From: Terasakiella brassicae
GTDB lineage: Bacteria; Pseudomonadota; Alphaproteobacteria; Rhodospirillales; Terasakiellaceae
DNA: 64,000 bases
Assembly: GCF_014641495.1 (NCBI RefSeq)
Contig: NZ_BMHV01000009.1
Location: 62,001-126,000 of the forward strand
Reading direction: 5' to 3'
Under the pieces are notes generated by a model. The model searched no databases and was not told where the DNA came from. It worked only from the letters and a program-made list of their open reading frames with translations. Below, piece by piece: positions 3,797 through 12,784 of the stretch (positions are counted from its first letter, which is position 1; every line of letters starts with the position of its first letter). A program made the translations under genes and the position numbers.

Positions 3797-4399
3797 TCAC
3801 TGGCGCTGAAAAACCAATGAAAAATTGTTTGCAGGCATCTCAACGACCTCTTGCAATGCAAGACCGTTTTTACGGGCCTCGGCATCAACCTCGCTGATAT
3901 CGCGCACTGCGAAACGGGGATCTTTCTCTTTCAGCCAATATTCAAATTCCATATTGCTGGGGGCGGTATGTTCCCCATTTCGCCGATAAGGCCCGTATAG
4001 ATACAGAAAACCGCCTTGCCGGATCAACGTCCCGGCTTTTTTCATTAACCCGATGGTCGCCTCCCACGCACTGATATGCACCATATTGATACATATCAGT
4101 GCATCCAATTCATTTTGGGGCCAATTGTCCTCTATTGTGGTATCCAACGACAAAGGGGGAAGAATATTTTCAAGTGCGTGATGATCCACCCAGCCCTGAA
4201 TACTTTTCAGACAAGCCGGATCAAGATCACTGGGTTGCCAAACCAGCCCCGGATAATGTTGTGCAAAATGAACAACATGCTCGCCGCTGCCGCTTGCAAT
4301 CTCCAAAACGCGTCCCGTATCGGGTAAAAACCGTTTTAGGACGGCTAAAATCGGACCCCGATTACGTGCAGTTGCGGGATAATTCAAACGGTGTGGCAT
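3797..4399 (-). CDS. DUF938-family class I SAM-dependent methyltransferase
   Basis: About 200 residues. After an N-terminal segment with ATARNRGPIL, motif I reads VLEIASGSGEHVVHF, the glycine-rich SAM-binding loop, and the acidic post-I residue follows in QPSDLDP. This layout is typical of the DUF938 group, whose substrate is not established. The ATG at 4399 is preferred: it has a GGAG Shine-Dalgarno about eight bases upstream, and the conserved N-terminus begins there; a TTG at 4453 would extend it by 18 residues. It is divergent from fdxA. Confidence 0.82.
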   Translation of the reverse strand: MPHRLNYPATARNRGPILAVLKRFLPDTGRVLEIASGSGEHVVHFAQHYPGLVWQPSDLDPACLKSIQGWVDHHALENILPPLSLDTTIEDNWPQNELDALICINMVHISAWEATIGLMKKAGTLIRQGGFLYLYGPYRRNGEHTAPSNMEFEYWLKEKDPRFAVRDISEVDAEARKNGLALQEVVEMPANNFSLVFQRQ

Positions 4400-4672
4400 T
4401 GGGGGAAGCTCCTTCTTTTTCAATAAGGTAGGAACTTTTACTTGGAGATGCAATGTTGTGATTGATTTTCACTCACACTCTGGATGCAAAAAAACGGGTA
4501 TCCACAATATTCATATGGTTGCTGTCTCCAAAGGATTGTGCTACCTCAATTCAACTATTTTGGGGTATGAGCCGATCATGTCCTTTGGGGAAGAAGATAT
4601 TAACGATTCGCTTTGTCCGCACGATTCGACAAACGGTTAAACCGGCCAAGCGATCAAAAAACGGAGATTCAA

Positions 4673-5008
4673 ATGACCTACGTTGTCGTGGAAAACTGTA
4701 TTAAATGTAAATACACCGACTGTGTCGAGGTCTGCCCGGTTGACTGTTTCTACGAAGGTGAAAACACCTTGGTAATCAACCCGGACGAATGTATTGATTG
4801 CGGCGTATGCGAACCGGAATGCCCGGCAGAAGCGATCTTGCCGGATACCGAAGACGGCATTGAAGACTGGCTGGAAATTAACCAGAAATTCGCAGAAGTC
4901 TGGCCGAACATCACAGCCAAGAAAGACCCGATGGAAAATGCCGATGCGGAAAATGGTCGCGCCGGTAAAAAAGCGGAACTGAGCGAAAACCCGGGCGCAG
5001 GCGACTGA
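4673..5008 (+). CDS. fdxA: seven-iron (3Fe-4S/4Fe-4S) ferredoxin FdxA
   Basis: A low-potential electron carrier of 111 residues. Cysteines at 9, 12, 17, 21, 25 and 40, 43, 46, 50 match the Azotobacter ferredoxin I arrangement, in which one set holds a 3Fe-4S cluster and the other a 4Fe-4S cluster. The C-terminal 50 residues are acidic and lack cysteine. The start is fixed by a GGAG ribosome site (ACGGAGATTCAA). A terminator follows at 5050-5080, and the CarD regulator gene lies next on the same strand, an order conserved in alphaproteobacteria. The redox partner is not shown here, though a ferredoxin-NADP reductase is encoded at 60.8 kb. Confidence 0.93.
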
Positions 5009-5049
5009 GCCAAGCACCTGTAATCTTTTACAGTTTCAGATTTCAAAGA

Positions 5050-5080
5050 CCTGCTTCTTCAGGAAAGAAGCGGGTTTTTG
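5050..5080 (+). terminator. fdxA terminator
   Basis: Ten-pair stem (CCTGCTTCTT with AAGAAGCGGG, one wobble) with a CAGGA loop, followed by five T. Confidence 0.75.
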
Positions 5081-5143
5081 TCATGTTTTTGTAACTTAGG
5101 TCTGTTTTTTTGACCAATCTTGTGGTATAACCATTGCCAACAG

Positions 5144-5169
5144 CCGGTTCCGTGCGGAGCCGGTTTTTG
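5144..5169 (+). terminator. terminator-like hairpin in the carD leader (first of two)
   Basis: A nine-pair stem, CCGGTTCCG with CGGAGCCGG (one G-U pair) around TG, runs straight into GTTTTTG. It lies 185 bases before carD. An extended -10-like TGTGGTATAAC sits just upstream at about 5121-5131 with no good -35. It may mark a short attenuated transcript or a small RNA end. Confidence 0.5.
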
Positions 5170-5242
5170 ACCGTCCAGAGTCTTATATCCCTGTCAAACT
5201 TTATGATGCTCAGGGCGGCCAACCAACCAAATATAGACAACC

Positions 5243-5290
5243 CGTTGTCATGTCGGCCCCTTCTGCTTAACCAAGCGGACGGTTTTTTTT
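5243..5290 (+). terminator. terminator-like hairpin in the carD leader (second of two)
   Basis: Seven-pair stem TCTGCTT/AAGCGGA (one wobble) with loop AACC, flanked by a possible outer CCGT/ACGG pairing, then eight T at 5283-5290. It is 64 bases upstream of the carD start and downstream of the fdxA terminator. Apart from these two hairpins nothing else is evident in the 346-base fdxA-carD gap. Confidence 0.5.
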
Positions 5291-5354
5291 GTCGCCGAAT
5301 TTGGGTTCCCCCCACCTGATGGGCTGTCTGTGTAAAGAGTAAGAGAGATAAGAA

Positions 5355-5861
5355 ATGGCTCAAAACCTACCGTTCGATTCTGGCGATTTTGTCGTATATC
5401 CGACTCATGGCGTTGGCCGCGTTGTGGGCGTTGAAACTCAGGAAATCGGTGGTCACGAACTCCAGTTATTTGTGATTACATTTGAACATGAACGCATGAC
5501 GTTACGCGTCCCTGTCGGCAAAATCAAAGCCGCAGGCTTACGTAAACTCAGCTCCGGTAAAATCATGGAAACAGCAATGACCACGCTGAAAGGCAAAGCC
5601 AAAGTCAAGCGCACCATGTGGAGCCGCCGTGCACAGGAATATGAAGCAAAGATCAACTCCGGCGATCCGGTTTTGATTGCAGAAGTTGTTCGCGATCTTT
5701 ATCGCAACGTCGGTCAACCTGACCAGTCTTTCTCCGAGCGCCAAATTTATGAAGCTGCGTTGGAGCGATTGGCCCATGAAGTTGCAGCCGTTGAAAACAT
5801 CGACAAAGATGCGGCAACCGAAAAGCTGGAAGACGTCCTTCAAAAAGAAAAAGCCGCTTAA
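5355..5861 (+). CDS. carD: CarD/CdnL-family transcription regulator
   Basis: A protein of 168 residues that begins with the CarD RNA-polymerase-interacting domain (about residues 8-65, FDSGDFVVYPTHGVGRVVG) and continues into a basic helical DNA-contacting region (about 70-165, with KVKRTMWSRRAQEYEAKI). Family members bind the RNA polymerase beta subunit and stabilise open complexes, notably at rRNA promoters. The start has the purine-rich AAGAGAGATAAGAA upstream. The gene is preceded by an unusual leader with two terminator-like hairpins and closed by a strong terminator at 5886-5925. Confidence 0.92.
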   Translation: MAQNLPFDSGDFVVYPTHGVGRVVGVETQEIGGHELQLFVITFEHERMTLRVPVGKIKAAGLRKLSSGKIMETAMTTLKGKAKVKRTMWSRRAQEYEAKINSGDPVLIAEVVRDLYRNVGQPDQSFSERQIYEAALERLAHEVAAVENIDKDAATEKLEDVLQKEKAA

Positions 5862-5885
5862 GCTTTACTTGCATATGACTTTATG

Positions 5886-5925
5886 AAAAGGCAGGATAGA
5901 TTATAAATCTTCCTGCCTTTTCCTA
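5886..5925 (+). terminator. carD terminator
   Basis: Eleven-pair perfect stem (AAAAGGCAGGA with TCCTGCCTTTT) around an A/T-rich loop. Confidence 0.8.
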
Positions 5926-5943
5926 TAGATAAAAGGGACGTGT

Positions 5944-6744
5944 ATGTCGCAAGACGGTAAATTTGCGAAGCTGACAGGTAAAAAACGGATTTGGGCTGTT
6001 GGTGCCATTCATGGTGAAGTCGACAAACTGAAAGCCCTTCATGGTCAATTGGCCAATCATTTCCTGCCCGGTGATGCCCTGATTTATTGCGGTAACATTC
6101 TGGGGCGTGGTCCCGATGTTGCCGGAACATTGAATGAAGTTTTAAATTTCCGCCGTCTTGTTATTTTACAGGAAGGTGCCGAAACCGATGACGTTGTTTT
6201 CCTGCGCGGCTGTCAGGAAGAAATGCTTTATAAAATGCGCCAGCTTCCCTTTGCCCGTGAACCGGAAGAAGTGTTGGAATGGATGTATAATCAGGGTGTA
6301 GAAAGCACCCTTCAGGCCTATCACACCTCCTGCGCAGAAGGGATCAAGGCTGCAAAAGGCGGCATGAGCGCCTTATCAGCCTGGACCAATGCGTTAAAAG
6401 AAACCATGCGCACGATGGATGGCCATGAACAATATATGGATGCCTTGAAACGGGCCGCCTATAGCGATGATAAAAAACTGTTGTTCGTCAACGCTAATGT
6501 TGTACCCGATATGCCGCTGGACGCGCAAACCGATGCTTTTTGGTGGGGCACGCAAGAATTTCGTGAACTAGACCACCCCTACAGCGGGTTTGAACGCACG
6601 GTCCGGGGCTATGACCACCGCCAAGGCGGTTTTCATATGGCCAAACACCAGCTTTGCATTGATAGCGGTTGCGGATTTGGCGGCAAGCTGAGCGGTGTCT
6701 GCTTTGAAGAAAACGGCGCCCTTGTGGAACGGATTGACGTTTAA
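5944..6744 (+). CDS. calcineurin-like phosphoesterase fold with degenerate active site (probable pseudoenzyme)
   Basis: A protein of 266 residues that follows the layout of PPP/ApaH-type metallophosphoesterases but with altered metal ligands. GDxHG has become AVGAIHGE (Asp lost, His kept); GDxxDRG has become CGNILGRGPD (both Asp lost, Arg kept); GNHE has become RGCQEE; HAG has become NANV near VVPDMPL; the C-terminal IDxG-GG element is kept as IDSGCGFGGKL. Inference: the fold is kept for binding or regulation while catalysis is probably lost. The start has AAGGGA seven bases upstream. It follows carD on the same strand after a terminator. The stop overlaps the convergent ABC-F gene in a shared TTAA. 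Confidence 0.7.
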   Translation: MSQDGKFAKLTGKKRIWAVGAIHGEVDKLKALHGQLANHFLPGDALIYCGNILGRGPDVAGTLNEVLNFRRLVILQEGAETDDVVFLRGCQEEMLYKMRQLPFAREPEEVLEWMYNQGVESTLQAYHTSCAEGIKAAKGGMSALSAWTNALKETMRTMDGHEQYMDALKRAAYSDDKKLLFVNANVVPDMPLDAQTDAFWWGTQEFRELDHPYSGFERTVRGYDHRQGGFHMAKHQLCIDSGCGFGGKLSGVCFEENGALVERIDV

Positions 6745-8540
6745 CCTGCCGATAATTCTTCCTGCAACATTTCCAGTTCCAGCCAGCGTTCTTCACAAGC
6801 CTCCAGTTCGGCTTGAACCACGCTTAGATCATCACTGGTTTTTTGGAATTTATCCGGGCTTTTGGCAAATAAATCCGGGTCCGCCATTGCGCGTTCCAAC
6901 TGTTCTTTCTCAGCCGTCAGTTTTTCCATCTTTTGCGGCAACATATCCAGTTCGCGCTGATCTTTATAACTGAGCTTGGCTTTCGTCTTTTTCGGTTGTT
7001 CTTTTGGTTTTTCTGCTGATTTCGCCTTTGCCTCTGTCACCGCTTTATCATCGGGGCGTTGGCGCAAATAATCTTCATACCCACCGGGGTATTCCTGCAC
7101 ATTTCCATTGCCTTCCACTGCAATGGTCGATGTCACAACCCGGTCCAGAAAATCCCGGTCGTGACTGACCAGCAACAAGGTGCCGTCATATTCAGATAGT
7201 ACTTCCTGCAACAGGTCCAGCGTTTCCATATCCAGATCGTTGGTCGGTTCATCCAAGACAAGGAAATTGGTCGGACTTGCCAAAAGCTTCGCCAGCATCA
7301 GGCGGTTTTTCTCCCCACCGGATAAGGCATGGATGGGTTGGCGGGCTTGACGTTCTTCAAACAGAAAATCACGCATATAAGTCACGACATGCTTGGGTTG
7401 ATCATGCACAATGATCTGATCCCCGCCCATATCGGCCAAATAATCCCACGGTGTCACATCTTTGGGCAAATTGTCGCGTTTCTGATCAAAATAAGCCGCT
7501 GTCAAATTGGTCCCGATACGAATATCGCCACTGTCAGGCTGTAATTGTCCCGTCAGCATTTTTAACAAAGTTGTTTTCCCCGCCCCGTTCGGGCCAATTA
7601 AACCGATTTTGTCACCGCGCATCACACGAATGGAAAAATCTTTGGCGATAATTTTGTCGCCAAAGGCCTTGGAAATTCCCTTGGCTTCAATCACCAACTT
7701 ACCGGAGCTTTCCCCACTATCGACTTTTAAATTCACCGTCCCTTGCACCTGAACGCGGGTGGCTTTTTGTTCACGCAGATCAGCCAGTTTGCGCACGCGT
7801 CGCATATTACGTTTGCGCCGCGCTGTGACGCCTTTCAACATATAACGTTCTTCTTCGGCAATCTGGATATTGATGCGGGTCAGTTCTTTTTCCTCATCCG
7901 CCAGAACCTGTTCAACCCATTCGTCAAAAAATTCATATCCCTGATCCGTCCTGCGTATTTTTGAACGATCCAGCCACAATAATTGACGGGACAGTTTACG
8001 TAAAAACGTCCGGTCGTGACTGATCATCATCATCGCGCCCCGGAAAGACTGCAATTCTTCTTCCAGCCATTCAATCGTCGGTAAATCAAGGTGGTTTGTC
8101 GGCTCGTCCAGCAGCAAAATGTCCGGTTCGGAAACCAGCGCACGGGCAATGGCAGCGCGTCGCCCCTCTCCACCCGATAATGTGGAGGTATCACGCGCCC
8201 CGTCCAGTTGCATGGCTTCCAGACAAATATCCACCCGGTGATATTCATCTTCATGGCGCAAACCCGCATGAACATAATCATGGACACTGACGCCTTCGGG
8301 CATGACGGGGTCTTGCGGCAGATAGGAAACGGTTACGCCGGGTTGGACAAACCGTTCGCCGTCATCGACTTCAACCAAGCCGGCGATAACTTTCATCAAG
8401 GTTGACTTACCCGAACCATTGCGCCCGACCAGACAGATACGATCCCCCGGTTGAACAGCACATTCCACCCCTTCAAAGACAGGACGACCGCCAAAGGTTA
8501 CATGTACATCGCGAAGTGTGAGAAGCGGAGGGAGCGCCAT
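6741..8540 (-). CDS. uup: ABC-F family ATPase, Uup-like
   Basis: A soluble protein of 599 residues with two ATP-binding cassettes and no membrane domain. Cassette 1 has GRNGSGKS near residue 39, LSGGEGRRAA and LLDEPTNHLDL; cassette 2 has GPNGAGKT near 318, LSGGEKNRL and VLDEPTNDLDM. A linker lies between them. The C-terminal 80 residues are a charged coiled coil beginning after the lysine-rich KEQPKKTKAK, which favours Uup over EttA or YheS. Uup proteins bind DNA or ribosomes and affect transposon excision and ribosome assembly. The start has AAGGATT upstream. It is convergent with the phosphoesterase-like gene. Confidence 0.88.
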   Translation of the reverse strand: MALPPLLTLRDVHVTFGGRPVFEGVECAVQPGDRICLVGRNGSGKSTLMKVIAGLVEVDDGERFVQPGVTVSYLPQDPVMPEGVSVHDYVHAGLRHEDEYHRVDICLEAMQLDGARDTSTLSGGEGRRAAIARALVSEPDILLLDEPTNHLDLPTIEWLEEELQSFRGAMMMISHDRTFLRKLSRQLLWLDRSKIRRTDQGYEFFDEWVEQVLADEEKELTRINIQIAEEERYMLKGVTARRKRNMRRVRKLADLREQKATRVQVQGTVNLKVDSGESSGKLVIEAKGISKAFGDKIIAKDFSIRVMRGDKIGLIGPNGAGKTTLLKMLTGQLQPDSGDIRIGTNLTAAYFDQKRDNLPKDVTPWDYLADMGGDQIIVHDQPKHVVTYMRDFLFEERQARQPIHALSGGEKNRLMLAKLLASPTNFLVLDEPTNDLDMETLDLLQEVLSEYDGTLLLVSHDRDFLDRVVTSTIAVEGNGNVQEYPGGYEDYLRQRPDDKAVTEAKAKSAEKPKEQPKKTKAKLSYKDQRELDMLPQKMEKLTAEKEQLERAMADPDLFAKSPDKFQKTSDDLSVVQAELEACEERWLELEMLQEELSAG

Positions 8541-9520: not shown

Positions 9521-10915
9521 ATGACCACTGCATACGGAACGATTGATCAGACCTTTTTAAACCAACTGCACACCCTGACGGACAAGGACCGGGTTTCCAC
9601 GTCGAAAGCCTTGTGTGAACAACATGGAACAGATGAGTCATACCATAAGGCGCAGGCCCCGGATGTGGTGGTCTTCACACTTTCCACAAAAGAAGTCTCC
9701 GATGTTGTCAAACTCTGTGCGAAACACAAGATCCCGGTCATCCCTTATGGAACAGGGACGTCACTGGAAGGCCATATAGCCGCCCTGCATGGCGGTGTTT
9801 GCATCGACCTGTCCCAAATGGATAAAATTGTCGAAGCCCGCCCGCAAGATATGGATGTCACGGTTGAAGCCGGTGTCACACGCAAAGCCTTAAACGAATA
9901 TCTGCGCGATACGGGTCTCTTTTTCCCCATCGACCCCGGTGCGGATGCCTCCCTCGGCGGTATGGCCTCGACACGGGCATCAGGCACCAATGCGGTGCGG
10001 TACGGCACCATGCGTGAAAACGTACTGGCCCTGACCGTGGTCACCCCGAATGGCGATATTGTAAAGACCGCCTCGCGTGCAAAAAAATCTGCCGCTGGAT
10101 ACGATCTCACCCGTCTTTATGTCGGGGCGGAAGGCACGCTTGGTATTATCACCGAAGTCACCTTGCGTTTATACGGCATCCCGGAAACCATCAGTGCTGC
10201 CGTCTGTCCTTTCCCCGGTCTGGAAGAAGCCGTCAATACGGTGATTTCCATTATTCAATGTGGTATTCCCGTTGCCCGGATGGAATTGCTGGACGACCGC
10301 CAAATGTATGCGGTCAACCAATATTCCAAACTGGATTACGAAGTGGCCCCGACCCTGTTTTTTGAATTCCACGGCTCCCCGTCATCCGTAGAAGAACAGA
10401 TTGAAATGGTCAAAAGCCTTGCCGAAGATTTTGGCGGAAAGAACTTCCAGTGGGCCAGCCAACTGGAAGACCGTGACCGTCTGTGGAATGCCCGCCACAA
10501 TGCCTATTATGCCGCGCTTGCCTTACGACCAGGATGTAAAGGGGTCTCTTCCGATGCCTGTGTCCCGATCTCACGTCTTGCCGAGGCGATCATGGCGACC
10601 AAACAGGATATTGAAGACTCGTTTCTTGATGGCACCATTGTCGGGCATGTTGGCGATGGTAATTTCCATACTTTATTCGCCTTTATGCCCGATGATGAAA
10701 AAGAATTGGCCGAGGCCAAACGCCTGAATGCCCGTATTGTGGAACGCGCCATTGCAATGGACGGGACCTGCACAGGTGAACATGGCATCGGGCATGGTAA
10801 AATGAAATATCTGGAAAGCGAATTCGGGGAAGCCGGTCTGGAAATCATGCGCAGTTTGAAAAAAGCACTGGATCCCGATAACATTATGAACCCTGGGAAA
10901 ATTGTCGCTCTATAG
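9521..10915 (+). CDS. FAD-linked oxidase of the GlcD/D-lactate dehydrogenase family
   Basis: About 464 residues. The N-terminal PCMH-type FAD domain includes IPVIPYGTGTSLEGHI and the AEGTLGIITEVTLRL stretch. The C-terminal FAD-oxidase domain ends with HVGDGNFHT and GTCTGEHGIGHGK. These are the marks of 2-hydroxy acid dehydrogenases such as cytochrome-linked D-lactate dehydrogenase or glycolate oxidase subunit GlcD. No glcE or glcF follows, so a stand-alone D-lactate-type enzyme is more likely. The ATG at 9521 is chosen; an ATG at 9476 is possible. The last 32 bases overlap the convergent gene. Confidence 0.85.
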   Translation: MTTAYGTIDQTFLNQLHTLTDKDRVSTSKALCEQHGTDESYHKAQAPDVVVFTLSTKEVSDVVKLCAKHKIPVIPYGTGTSLEGHIAALHGGVCIDLSQMDKIVEARPQDMDVTVEAGVTRKALNEYLRDTGLFFPIDPGADASLGGMASTRASGTNAVRYGTMRENVLALTVVTPNGDIVKTASRAKKSAAGYDLTRLYVGAEGTLGIITEVTLRLYGIPETISAAVCPFPGLEEAVNTVISIIQCGIPVARMELLDDRQMYAVNQYSKLDYEVAPTLFFEFHGSPSSVEEQIEMVKSLAEDFGGKNFQWASQLEDRDRLWNARHNAYYAALALRPGCKGVSSDACVPISRLAEAIMATKQDIEDSFLDGTIVGHVGDGNFHTLFAFMPDDEKELAEAKRLNARIVERAIAMDGTCTGEHGIGHGKMKYLESEFGEAGLEIMRSLKKALDPDNIMNPGKIVAL

Positions 10916-11786
10916 CCTTTTCCGCAAGGACTTTTTTGTAATAGTTCAGATATAAATCAGCAATTTTCCGGCTCTGATTCATAATTGCTTCATTGGTCCG
11001 TGAAATCACGATGAAATCAGATGTCTTTGCGCGCATGCTGTTGGCAATCGCCATCATCACGCGCTTCGGCGCGCGCCATTCCCGTTTTAATTCATTTAAC
11101 GCTTGAACAAACTCGGCTTCAGGCGGGGCGATAATATTAAAGGCCTCATTACCCACCATCAAATCCTCCAGAATTTGATCAAATTCCAGAATGGAACGGG
11201 CCAGCGCATTGCGGTTGATATTTGCCGATATCCCGTAGGAGGTCATGCAAAACTCCTTTGCCGCCCTTTGCGACAAGGTTGCCAGTTTGCCCGTTAAACG
11301 GACCATTTCCGCCGCTTCCGCTTCATCGGTTATCTGGCTGCGATAATAGTCGCCCAATTCCTCAATCAGCTTTAATGTCGGTAAATTAAAATCTTCGATC
11401 ATATTGACATCCAACCCCGGATGTTGCGGTGTCTGCGCCAACAGGTCTGAGGCAAACTTCAAACGCCCCCAGACCGGTGCCAAACGTTGCAACTGATCCA
11501 ACACCACAGTGTCGTTTGCCGGGGAAATGCCATATGCGCCATGCCCCTCTTTTAAAATCATCAGATTGGTATCAAACATTTCACGGCTTTGAACAAGGAC
11601 ATCACGGTGTTGTTCGGTTTCTGTAAACGTCCCGATAAAACAAGCCGCCTTCGCCAAGCGTTGCGTCAACATATTTTGAATCGCCACCAGATTTGTCTTG
11701 CGCAGCAATTCACCCGCATCCGCCAGTCCGGGGCGCGCAAAAACACAACACAGCAGTATCACTCCTATGGCAGTAATTTTTTTCAA
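10884..11786 (-). CDS. secreted PilJ/NarX-type sensor-domain protein (paralogue B)
   Basis: A protein of 300 residues with a signal peptide (residues 1-22, ending GLADA) and two copies of the helical domain found at the N-terminus of type IV pili methyl-accepting transducers (PilJ-N). Each copy carries its signature helix: MLTQRLAKAACF near residue 40 and LSQRAAKEFC near 175. No membrane helix, kinase or methyl-accepting domain follows, so it should be a free periplasmic protein. It starts with TTG, supported by GAGG six bases upstream. It is a paralogue of the next gene upstream (11885-12784) and probably in its operon (98-base gap). Its 3' end overlaps the oxidase gene. Confidence 0.75.
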   Translation of the reverse strand: MKKITAIGVILLCCVFARPGLADAGELLRKTNLVAIQNMLTQRLAKAACFIGTFTETEQHRDVLVQSREMFDTNLMILKEGHGAYGISPANDTVVLDQLQRLAPVWGRLKFASDLLAQTPQHPGLDVNMIEDFNLPTLKLIEELGDYYRSQITDEAEAAEMVRLTGKLATLSQRAAKEFCMTSYGISANINRNALARSILEFDQILEDLMVGNEAFNIIAPPEAEFVQALNELKREWRAPKRVMMAIANSMRAKTSDFIVISRTNEAIMNQSRKIADLYLNYYKKVLAEKAIERQFSQGS

Positions 11787-11884
11787 CCGATCCTCATCCT
11801 ATCGTTTGACGCTTTTCTCCCATTACCTCCCATAAAACACCAAAAAGGGAAATAGGAAAGGGAAACATTATTTTTAGTGTTATA

Positions 11885-12784
11885 TCATTCCTGTGGCGCG
11901 GCGGCATCTTTATAATACGCGACCAGCATCTGAACAACCTGATTGGCCTCGCGAAGTAAGGCTTCATTTGATTTGGCAATTTTTTCAAAATCAGATGTCC
12001 GCGCTTGAAAACCACTGGCAACCGCCAATAAAACACCACGTGGTGACTGCCAGTCGACTTTCATCTGTGACAATTCGTTGCGAATTTCCAATGTTGGAAC
12101 CGCCGAAATACCTTGGCGCGGATTTCCACTGCGTAAATCTTCAATCGCCGTATCAAAGGTATGTACCGTCTTGGCAAGGCTGGCCCTGTTTTGATCCACA
12201 TCAACGCCATATGTGATCAAGCAAAATTCCTTGGCCGCTTTTTGGATCAACATACGCTGACGCCCTGCAATATTTAAAACGCGGGCCTGCCCGTTCGCCA
12301 TTTGCTGACTGGAGGCATATTCCATTTCCATCATTTTTACGACCCGTTCGAACTGCCCCAAAGCCTCAAGGTTATATTGTGCGATTAAATCAACGCCCAG
12401 TCCCGGCAATGCTGCACTTTCCCCTAATAAACGGGCACCGAAATCCAGCATTTCAAGCACACTATCCAGTTGATCCAGTTCTTCACGAATCGCTTTATTA
12501 CTTTCAGGGAGGAAGCCCTCTTGCGAACGGCCATTTTTAAAAGCGTCATGACTGACCTTTAACAGATCCGCTGTTTGCAGCAGGATTTGACGATGCTGTT
12601 CCACATCACTGAAAGTCGCAATAAAACAGGCAGCTTTGGCAAGGCGTTGGCTCAACATCCGTTGACGTCCGGCCAGATCAATTTTTTGGGCCTGCATGCG
12701 CTCTGTTGTCTCTGCAAAGACCGGTACATAGGCAAAGGTCGATAACAAAGAAAAAACACTTCCAATCAGGATAAATCTACGCAT
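11885..12784 (-). CDS. secreted PilJ/NarX-type sensor-domain protein (paralogue A)
   Basis: A protein of 299 residues with a signal peptide (about 1-24, cleaved near VFAE) and two PilJ-N-type helical repeats, each opening with a close copy of the same motif: AGRQRMLSQRLAKAACF near residue 38 and AGRQRMLIQKAAKEFC near 172. The same helix in NarX and PilJ lies in the ligand-binding periplasmic bundle. As in its neighbour there is no output domain. Spacing and similarity suggest a tandem duplication. A ligand (nitrate-like oxyanion in NarX) cannot be assigned. Confidence 0.75.
   Translation of the reverse strand: MRRFILIGSVFSLLSTFAYVPVFAETTERMQAQKIDLAGRQRMLSQRLAKAACFIATFSDVEQHRQILLQTADLLKVSHDAFKNGRSQEGFLPESNKAIREELDQLDSVLEMLDFGARLLGESAALPGLGVDLIAQYNLEALGQFERVVKMMEMEYASSQQMANGQARVLNIAGRQRMLIQKAAKEFCLITYGVDVDQNRASLAKTVHTFDTAIEDLRSGNPRQGISAVPTLEIRNELSQMKVDWQSPRGVLLAVASGFQARTSDFEKIAKSNEALLREANQVVQMLVAYYKDAAAPQE

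Follow-up and report, generated by a model that had tools for sequence, protein, structure and literature searches.

The gene at 5944-6744 (plus strand) of the window, the 64,000-nucleotide stretch of Terasakiella brassicae DNA that we analysed, raises the question of what a metallophosphoesterase-type protein does once it no longer has a complete metal site. The open reading frame is real, complete and intact, as originally predicted, and encodes 266 amino acids that align along their length with PPP/ApaH-type phosphoesterases. A ribosome-binding-like AAAAGGGA, read from the sequence itself, lies upstream of the gene at 5931-5938 (plus strand), and the frame shares its last four bases with the end of an ABC-transporter ATPase gene that runs towards it (6741-8540, minus strand). 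The named orthologues are that of Terasakiella pusilla (DSM 6293; L033), which is 73% identical to the window protein, and those of two metagenome-assembled genomes (L031 and L032).

Against Pfam, the window protein matched no family at E ≤ 1 and did not reach the gathering cut-off of PF00149 (Metallophos); against NCBIfam it gave sub-threshold matches only, those to the ApaH and PrpA/B models being weak and far under their cut-offs (best ApaH, E 4.2e-7, 29.5 bits where the cut-off is 176). Two other members of the family described below gave no NCBIfam match at E ≤ 0.01. Among the Pfam matches of 30 order-level members, Metallophos_3 was the commonest (6 members, best E 0.0039) and PF00149 was absent, whereas all three paralogues scanned matched PF00149. 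A PDB search with a 30-member profile returned the ApaH-like entry 2qjc (E 2e-6), and aligning the family profile to a separately aligned profile of 15 paralogues (hhalign) gave a probability of 99.9 and an E-value of 5.8e-33 over 224 columns, which bears out both the PPP/ApaH homology and the order of the motifs. The AlphaFold model, built from four sequences only (the window protein and L031-L033), was too poor to be used by itself, with a mean pLDDT of 55; Foldseek on this model placed ApaH 2dfj on top (E 3.8e-3, TM 0.33), with no match at E ≤ 0.001. The window family is homologous to PPP-type bacterial phosphatases and ApaH-like enzymes (PrpA/PrpB, ApaH, PrpE) along most of its sequence and has their motifs in the same order, but its metal site, catalytic His and WIR Arg are replaced.

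To score the metal site we used positions 21, 23, 51, 90, 183 and 223, which we take to be the ligands by assignment from PPP enzymes. The window protein keeps one of these six and has replaced five; the catalytic His, the WIR Arg and the Asp at the second place in GDxxDRG have been replaced too. All the motif positions lie on the plus strand. In the former GDxHG (6004-6012) the Asp has become Ala21 and His23 is kept; in the former GDxxDRG (6094-6108) the first Asp reads Asn51 and the second Gly54, and Arg55 is kept; in the former GNHE (6211-6219) the Asn and the catalytic His have given way to Cys90 and Gln91, and Glu92 is kept. The former metal-ligand His of VHAG is Asn183 (6490-6492), Trp200-Trp201 are followed by Thr203 in place of the former WIR Arg (6541-6552), and the former VHGH (6604-6612) reads Arg221, Gly222 and Tyr223, the last of which stands where the ligand His was lost. 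The original prediction, in which Asp, Asp, Asn and His ligands read Ala, Asn, Cys and Asn, was right on all four (Ala21, Asn51, Cys90, Asn183), and its list lacked Gly54, Gln91, Thr203 and Tyr223. The His, Arg and IDxG-GG elements that it described as remaining are found as His23, Arg55, Asp240 and Gly246-Gly247.

We then asked how widely these replacements are shared. Of the 60 relatives searched, which include the source genome, 32 have an orthologue of near full length (E ≤ 1e-57); two further partial matches, in G055 and G024, stand outside every member count. In a draw of 385 genomes from the class, an orthologue was present in 134 (E ≤ 6e-49), the next match following at E 3.2e-20, and none was found in the other 251. 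These 134 correspond to the 130 class-only members of our set together with those of G000, G022, G026 and G033. Within a draw of 398 genomes from the phylum, the best match beyond the class reached E 8.3e-17. Two more orthologues (G762 and G794) are outside the member counts, and two rows identical to others (L034 to L001, L035 to L013) were dropped. The aligned set comprises 162 distinct members, each from a different genome and spread over 78 genome-family codes, together with the 15 paralogues, which were hand-picked from the weaker matches in the 60-relative and 385-genome searches. Beyond the genus but within the order, members are 39-50% identical to the window protein. A plasmid tblastn search gave 47 records, all below 60% identity (24.7-28.1% among the matches listed, 30 of the 47), and a scan of viral contigs for more relatives confirmed none. 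Among the open-access literature matches listed, no title dealt with this family.

No full ligand set occurs in any of the 162 distinct members, in which the maximum is three of six (none kept in 19 members, one in 70, two in 68 and three in 5), whereas all 15 paralogues examined have six of six. Because Asp is never present at position 21 (A105/S46/C5/P4/T1, one gap) or at position 51 (Asn 154, Gly 7, Ser 1), against six ligands in every paralogue, the loss is not a matter of chance. The remaining ligand positions vary more: His23 is retained in 134 members, position 90 is most commonly A79/S25/Q15/C12/G11, with Asn in 4, position 183 reads H76/N43/S30/A8/P5, and position 223 holds F68/Y62/H7. 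Because 76 members keep His183 and 4 keep Asn90, the Asn183 and Cys90 of the window protein are variants of its lineage, superimposed on a loss that the whole family shares.

In a tree of 45 diversity-picked members and the 15 paralogues, built without eleven active-site columns, the family forms one side of a branch with a support of 100/100, in a bootstrap that is not fully settled. The replaced residues therefore mark a distinct conserved clade, as had been proposed. Close homologues with full ligand sets, which would have spoken against the proposal, were sought in the 60 relatives and the 385 class genomes and were not found; full sets occurred in the 15 weaker matches whose motifs were read, beyond the gap in E-values that bounds the orthologues. 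Because the members form one clade, we infer a single ancestral loss of the metal site, provided that the root lies outside the family.

Within the genus, dN/dS of the gene was 0.044-0.141 in 8 of 15 pairs (dS was not estimable in the other 7), and that of carD, its upstream neighbour, was 0.009-0.024 in 15 pairs. Nearly the whole profile is covered in one stop-free frame in 159 of the 162 members, the three that fall short being L149, L157 and L159. These frames and the low dN/dS exclude decay, which agrees with the original reading of selection instead of decay. With its catalytic residues gone across the whole conserved clade and purifying selection acting within the genus, the family qualifies by its sequences as one of pseudophosphatases.

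We regard a scaffold- or adaptor-type pseudophosphatase family of the Alphaproteobacteria, in which the fold has been kept as a binding module, as the best explanation, with a probability of roughly one half. The sequences show that ligand loss is family-wide, that the family is one clade, that selection within the genus is purifying and that gene order is conserved; judged by its residues, the protein very probably has no phosphatase activity. Because the same losses are seen in relatives that are kept intact across many alphaproteobacteria, the function is probably one of binding and not of catalysis, a role in binding proteins in particular being evenly balanced. Of the original prediction, the non-catalytic role under selection is supported, and the specific binding or regulatory function remains conjectural. 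In such a scheme, the two-metal site of a PPP-type metallophosphoesterase would have been lost in the ancestor of the family, the fold would then have been retained as a binding module, and the resulting scaffold or adaptor would bind a protein partner, possibly within a transcription-control neighbourhood (CdnL/CarD, often RpoH).

Phosphatase folds that are re-used without catalysis are already known. In the B subunits of replicative DNA polymerases, an inactivated calcineurin-like phosphoesterase domain serves protein binding; we liken them to the window family by general description, and their subfamily and context differ from it. VPS29, a component of the retromer, is eukaryotic and comes from another branch of the superfamily. 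According to one report, its fold, which is related to that of phosphatases, serves as a scaffold that does not depend on metals (PMC3101248). The likeness is in the mode of use, for which VPS29 is a precedent, and VPS29 differs in that weak metal binding persists. The family described here is bacterial, is present in about one third of the sampled class genomes, has no Pfam or NCBIfam model above cut-off for the members scanned, and usually adjoins the gene of a transcription regulator that acts globally and is itself controlled in ways not fully explained. The label 'metallophosphoesterase' on its protein would mislead.

That regulator gene is carD/cdnL (5355-5861, plus strand; Pfam CarD_TRCF_RID and CarD_C), the product of which ends in KEKAA, and the next gene upstream encodes the ferredoxin FdxA (4673-5008, plus strand; NCBIfam FdxA_Protbact, E 2.5e-47). 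The ATG of fdxA at 4673 sits inside an ORF listed from 4613. A DUF938 gene (3797-4453, minus strand; Pfam E 1.4e-70) lies between an S4-domain gene and fdxA. Linkage to carD, which had been suggested as a check on the original prediction, is kept: in 138 of the 162 family loci, and in 73 of the 78 genome-family codes, carD is the direct upstream neighbour, with the same orientation and no more than 600 bases away. In the remaining 24 loci, carD lies elsewhere in the stretch in 4 and is absent from it in 20, of which one is at a contig end and two have just 1.5 kb of upstream sequence. Family loci contain fdxA in 117 of 162 cases by tblastn and in 112 by clustering, and rpoH lies downstream in 50, in one of them on the opposite strand. 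In member L064 (G396), for which an in-frame TAG was reported, carD is about 1.4 kb off, and the stop-free frame corresponds to positions 2-252 of the 262 in the profile.

Between carD and the pseudophosphatase gene of the window lies a terminator-like hairpin with a weak T tail (5885-5922, plus strand; -22.3 kcal/mol, z -6.6), and each of the six loci of the genus (L001-L006) has the same pattern between these two genes. Across the family, terminator-like hairpins were found in 50 of 133 carD gaps, 5 of the 138 having been omitted for length, compared with a mean of 1.2 and a highest count of 4 in 20 shuffles. Because the window hairpin has little T tail past its own stem and is not listed in a consensus scan of 4500-6900, in which no promoter-like sites were found either, transcription termination there is likely but not certain. 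The stable hairpin here and those in the other gaps reduce the carD link to conserved gene order, and a shared operon, which the adjacency might suggest, is unsupported.

The linkage may be no more than a gene order passed down by descent (fdxA-carD-X-rpoH) that means nothing for function, with the pseudophosphatase acting elsewhere. We consider this somewhat short of even odds, and it is compatible with any other reading. Besides the hairpins, it gains from fdxA, which has the same gene order, and from genomes without the family. In 30 family-negative genomes, hand-picked from the class draw, carD was present in 27, which indicates that CarD does not need the pseudophosphatase. In 10 of these 27 carD loci (L185, L187, L193-L196, L198, L201, L202 and L205) rpoH comes after carD, which looks like the fdxA-carD-X-rpoH order with its pseudophosphatase gene lost, and the whole-family profile found no trace of it in the 27 loci (best E 1.7). 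Family-positive and family-negative loci together indicate that the gene either sits in this order or is absent from it. Nor did CarD co-vary with the family, as no column separates family-positive from family-negative genomes. A purely inherited order is harder to reconcile with an adjacency that persists in nearly all genome-family codes despite only 39-50% identity of the proteins beyond the genus. A functional tie of the pseudophosphatase to CdnL or RpoH, which are candidates from gene order alone, is less likely than not.

The conservation of individual columns bears on the best explanation, for which conserved replacements speak and against which drifting positions count, and on a different reading, in which the protein is a metal-independent ligand sensor: its remodelled site (Asn51, Gln91, Arg221, Trp200 and Glu92) would bind some small molecule (a nucleotide, perhaps, or another phospho-compound) and would signal via a change in shape. 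These residues are well conserved, in the 83rd to 99th percentile of columns. Trp200 (159 of 162 members) ranks in the 99th and the invariant Glu92 (162 of 162) in the 97th, Asn51 shares the 93rd with Gly54 (161 of 162), and Arg221 and Gln91 follow in the 90th and 83rd. Ala21 (75th), Asn183 (71st) and His23 (64th) are intermediate, and position 223 (49th), position 90 (40th), position 203 (29th) and Arg55 (17th) drift. Arg221, present in 151 of 162 members where 14 of 15 paralogues have His, could hold an anion without metals. Two arginines conserved in the paralogues are not maintained, however: Arg55 is found in 51 of 162 members, against Asp, Asp and Arg of GDxxDRG in 15 of 15 paralogues, and Arg at 203 in 0 of 162 against 15 of 15. 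The one pocket that the conserved residues would have in common is putative, and we consider a sensor unlikely.

A changed enzyme, in which His23, His183, Asn51 and Glu92 are remnants that bind a metal or serve a different reaction, is less probable still. Exactly His23 and His183 are kept in 62 of 162 members, and His223 in addition in 5, which speaks for such an enzyme. Set against this are the 19 members without any ligand and the 70 with a single one, and the position of the catalytic His, which is Gln in 150 members and His in 2. Because shared chemistry would require a more constant set of residues, these counts disfavour it.

A pseudophosphatase gene next to carD also invites comparison with the turnover of CdnL. 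Clearance of CdnL by ClpXP in Caulobacter depends on SpoT, and the authors of that work suggest that an adaptor sensitive to (p)ppGpp may take part (PMC11034885). Passages of two further papers mention no neighbouring phosphatase gene (PMC5324124, PMC6994171). The window CarD (5355-5861) ends in Ala-Ala, like the degron for ClpXP reported in Caulobacter CdnL. Such an ending is commoner at family-positive loci (124 of 142) than at family-negative ones (16 of 27; Fisher p 0.0012), a difference to which we attach little weight because ancestry is not controlled. That the pseudophosphatase is a missing regulator of the housekeeping transcription factor CdnL (CarD), and possibly of RpoH as well, acting for instance as a (p)ppGpp-sensitive adaptor for ClpXP, would be a long shot; if Caulobacter does not have the gene, the protein cannot be the CdnL adaptor there.

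A decaying pseudogene or artefact, to which the missing catalytic motifs and the one member with an in-frame TAG could point, is refuted by the conservation of 162 distinct members in one clade, 159 of them near-full and stop-free, at low dN/dS, and has a negligible chance of being correct. Elsewhere in the window, two adjacent minus-strand ORFs of 300 and 299 amino acids (10884-12784) look like a tandem duplication and have QRLAKAACFI and AAKEFC in common.
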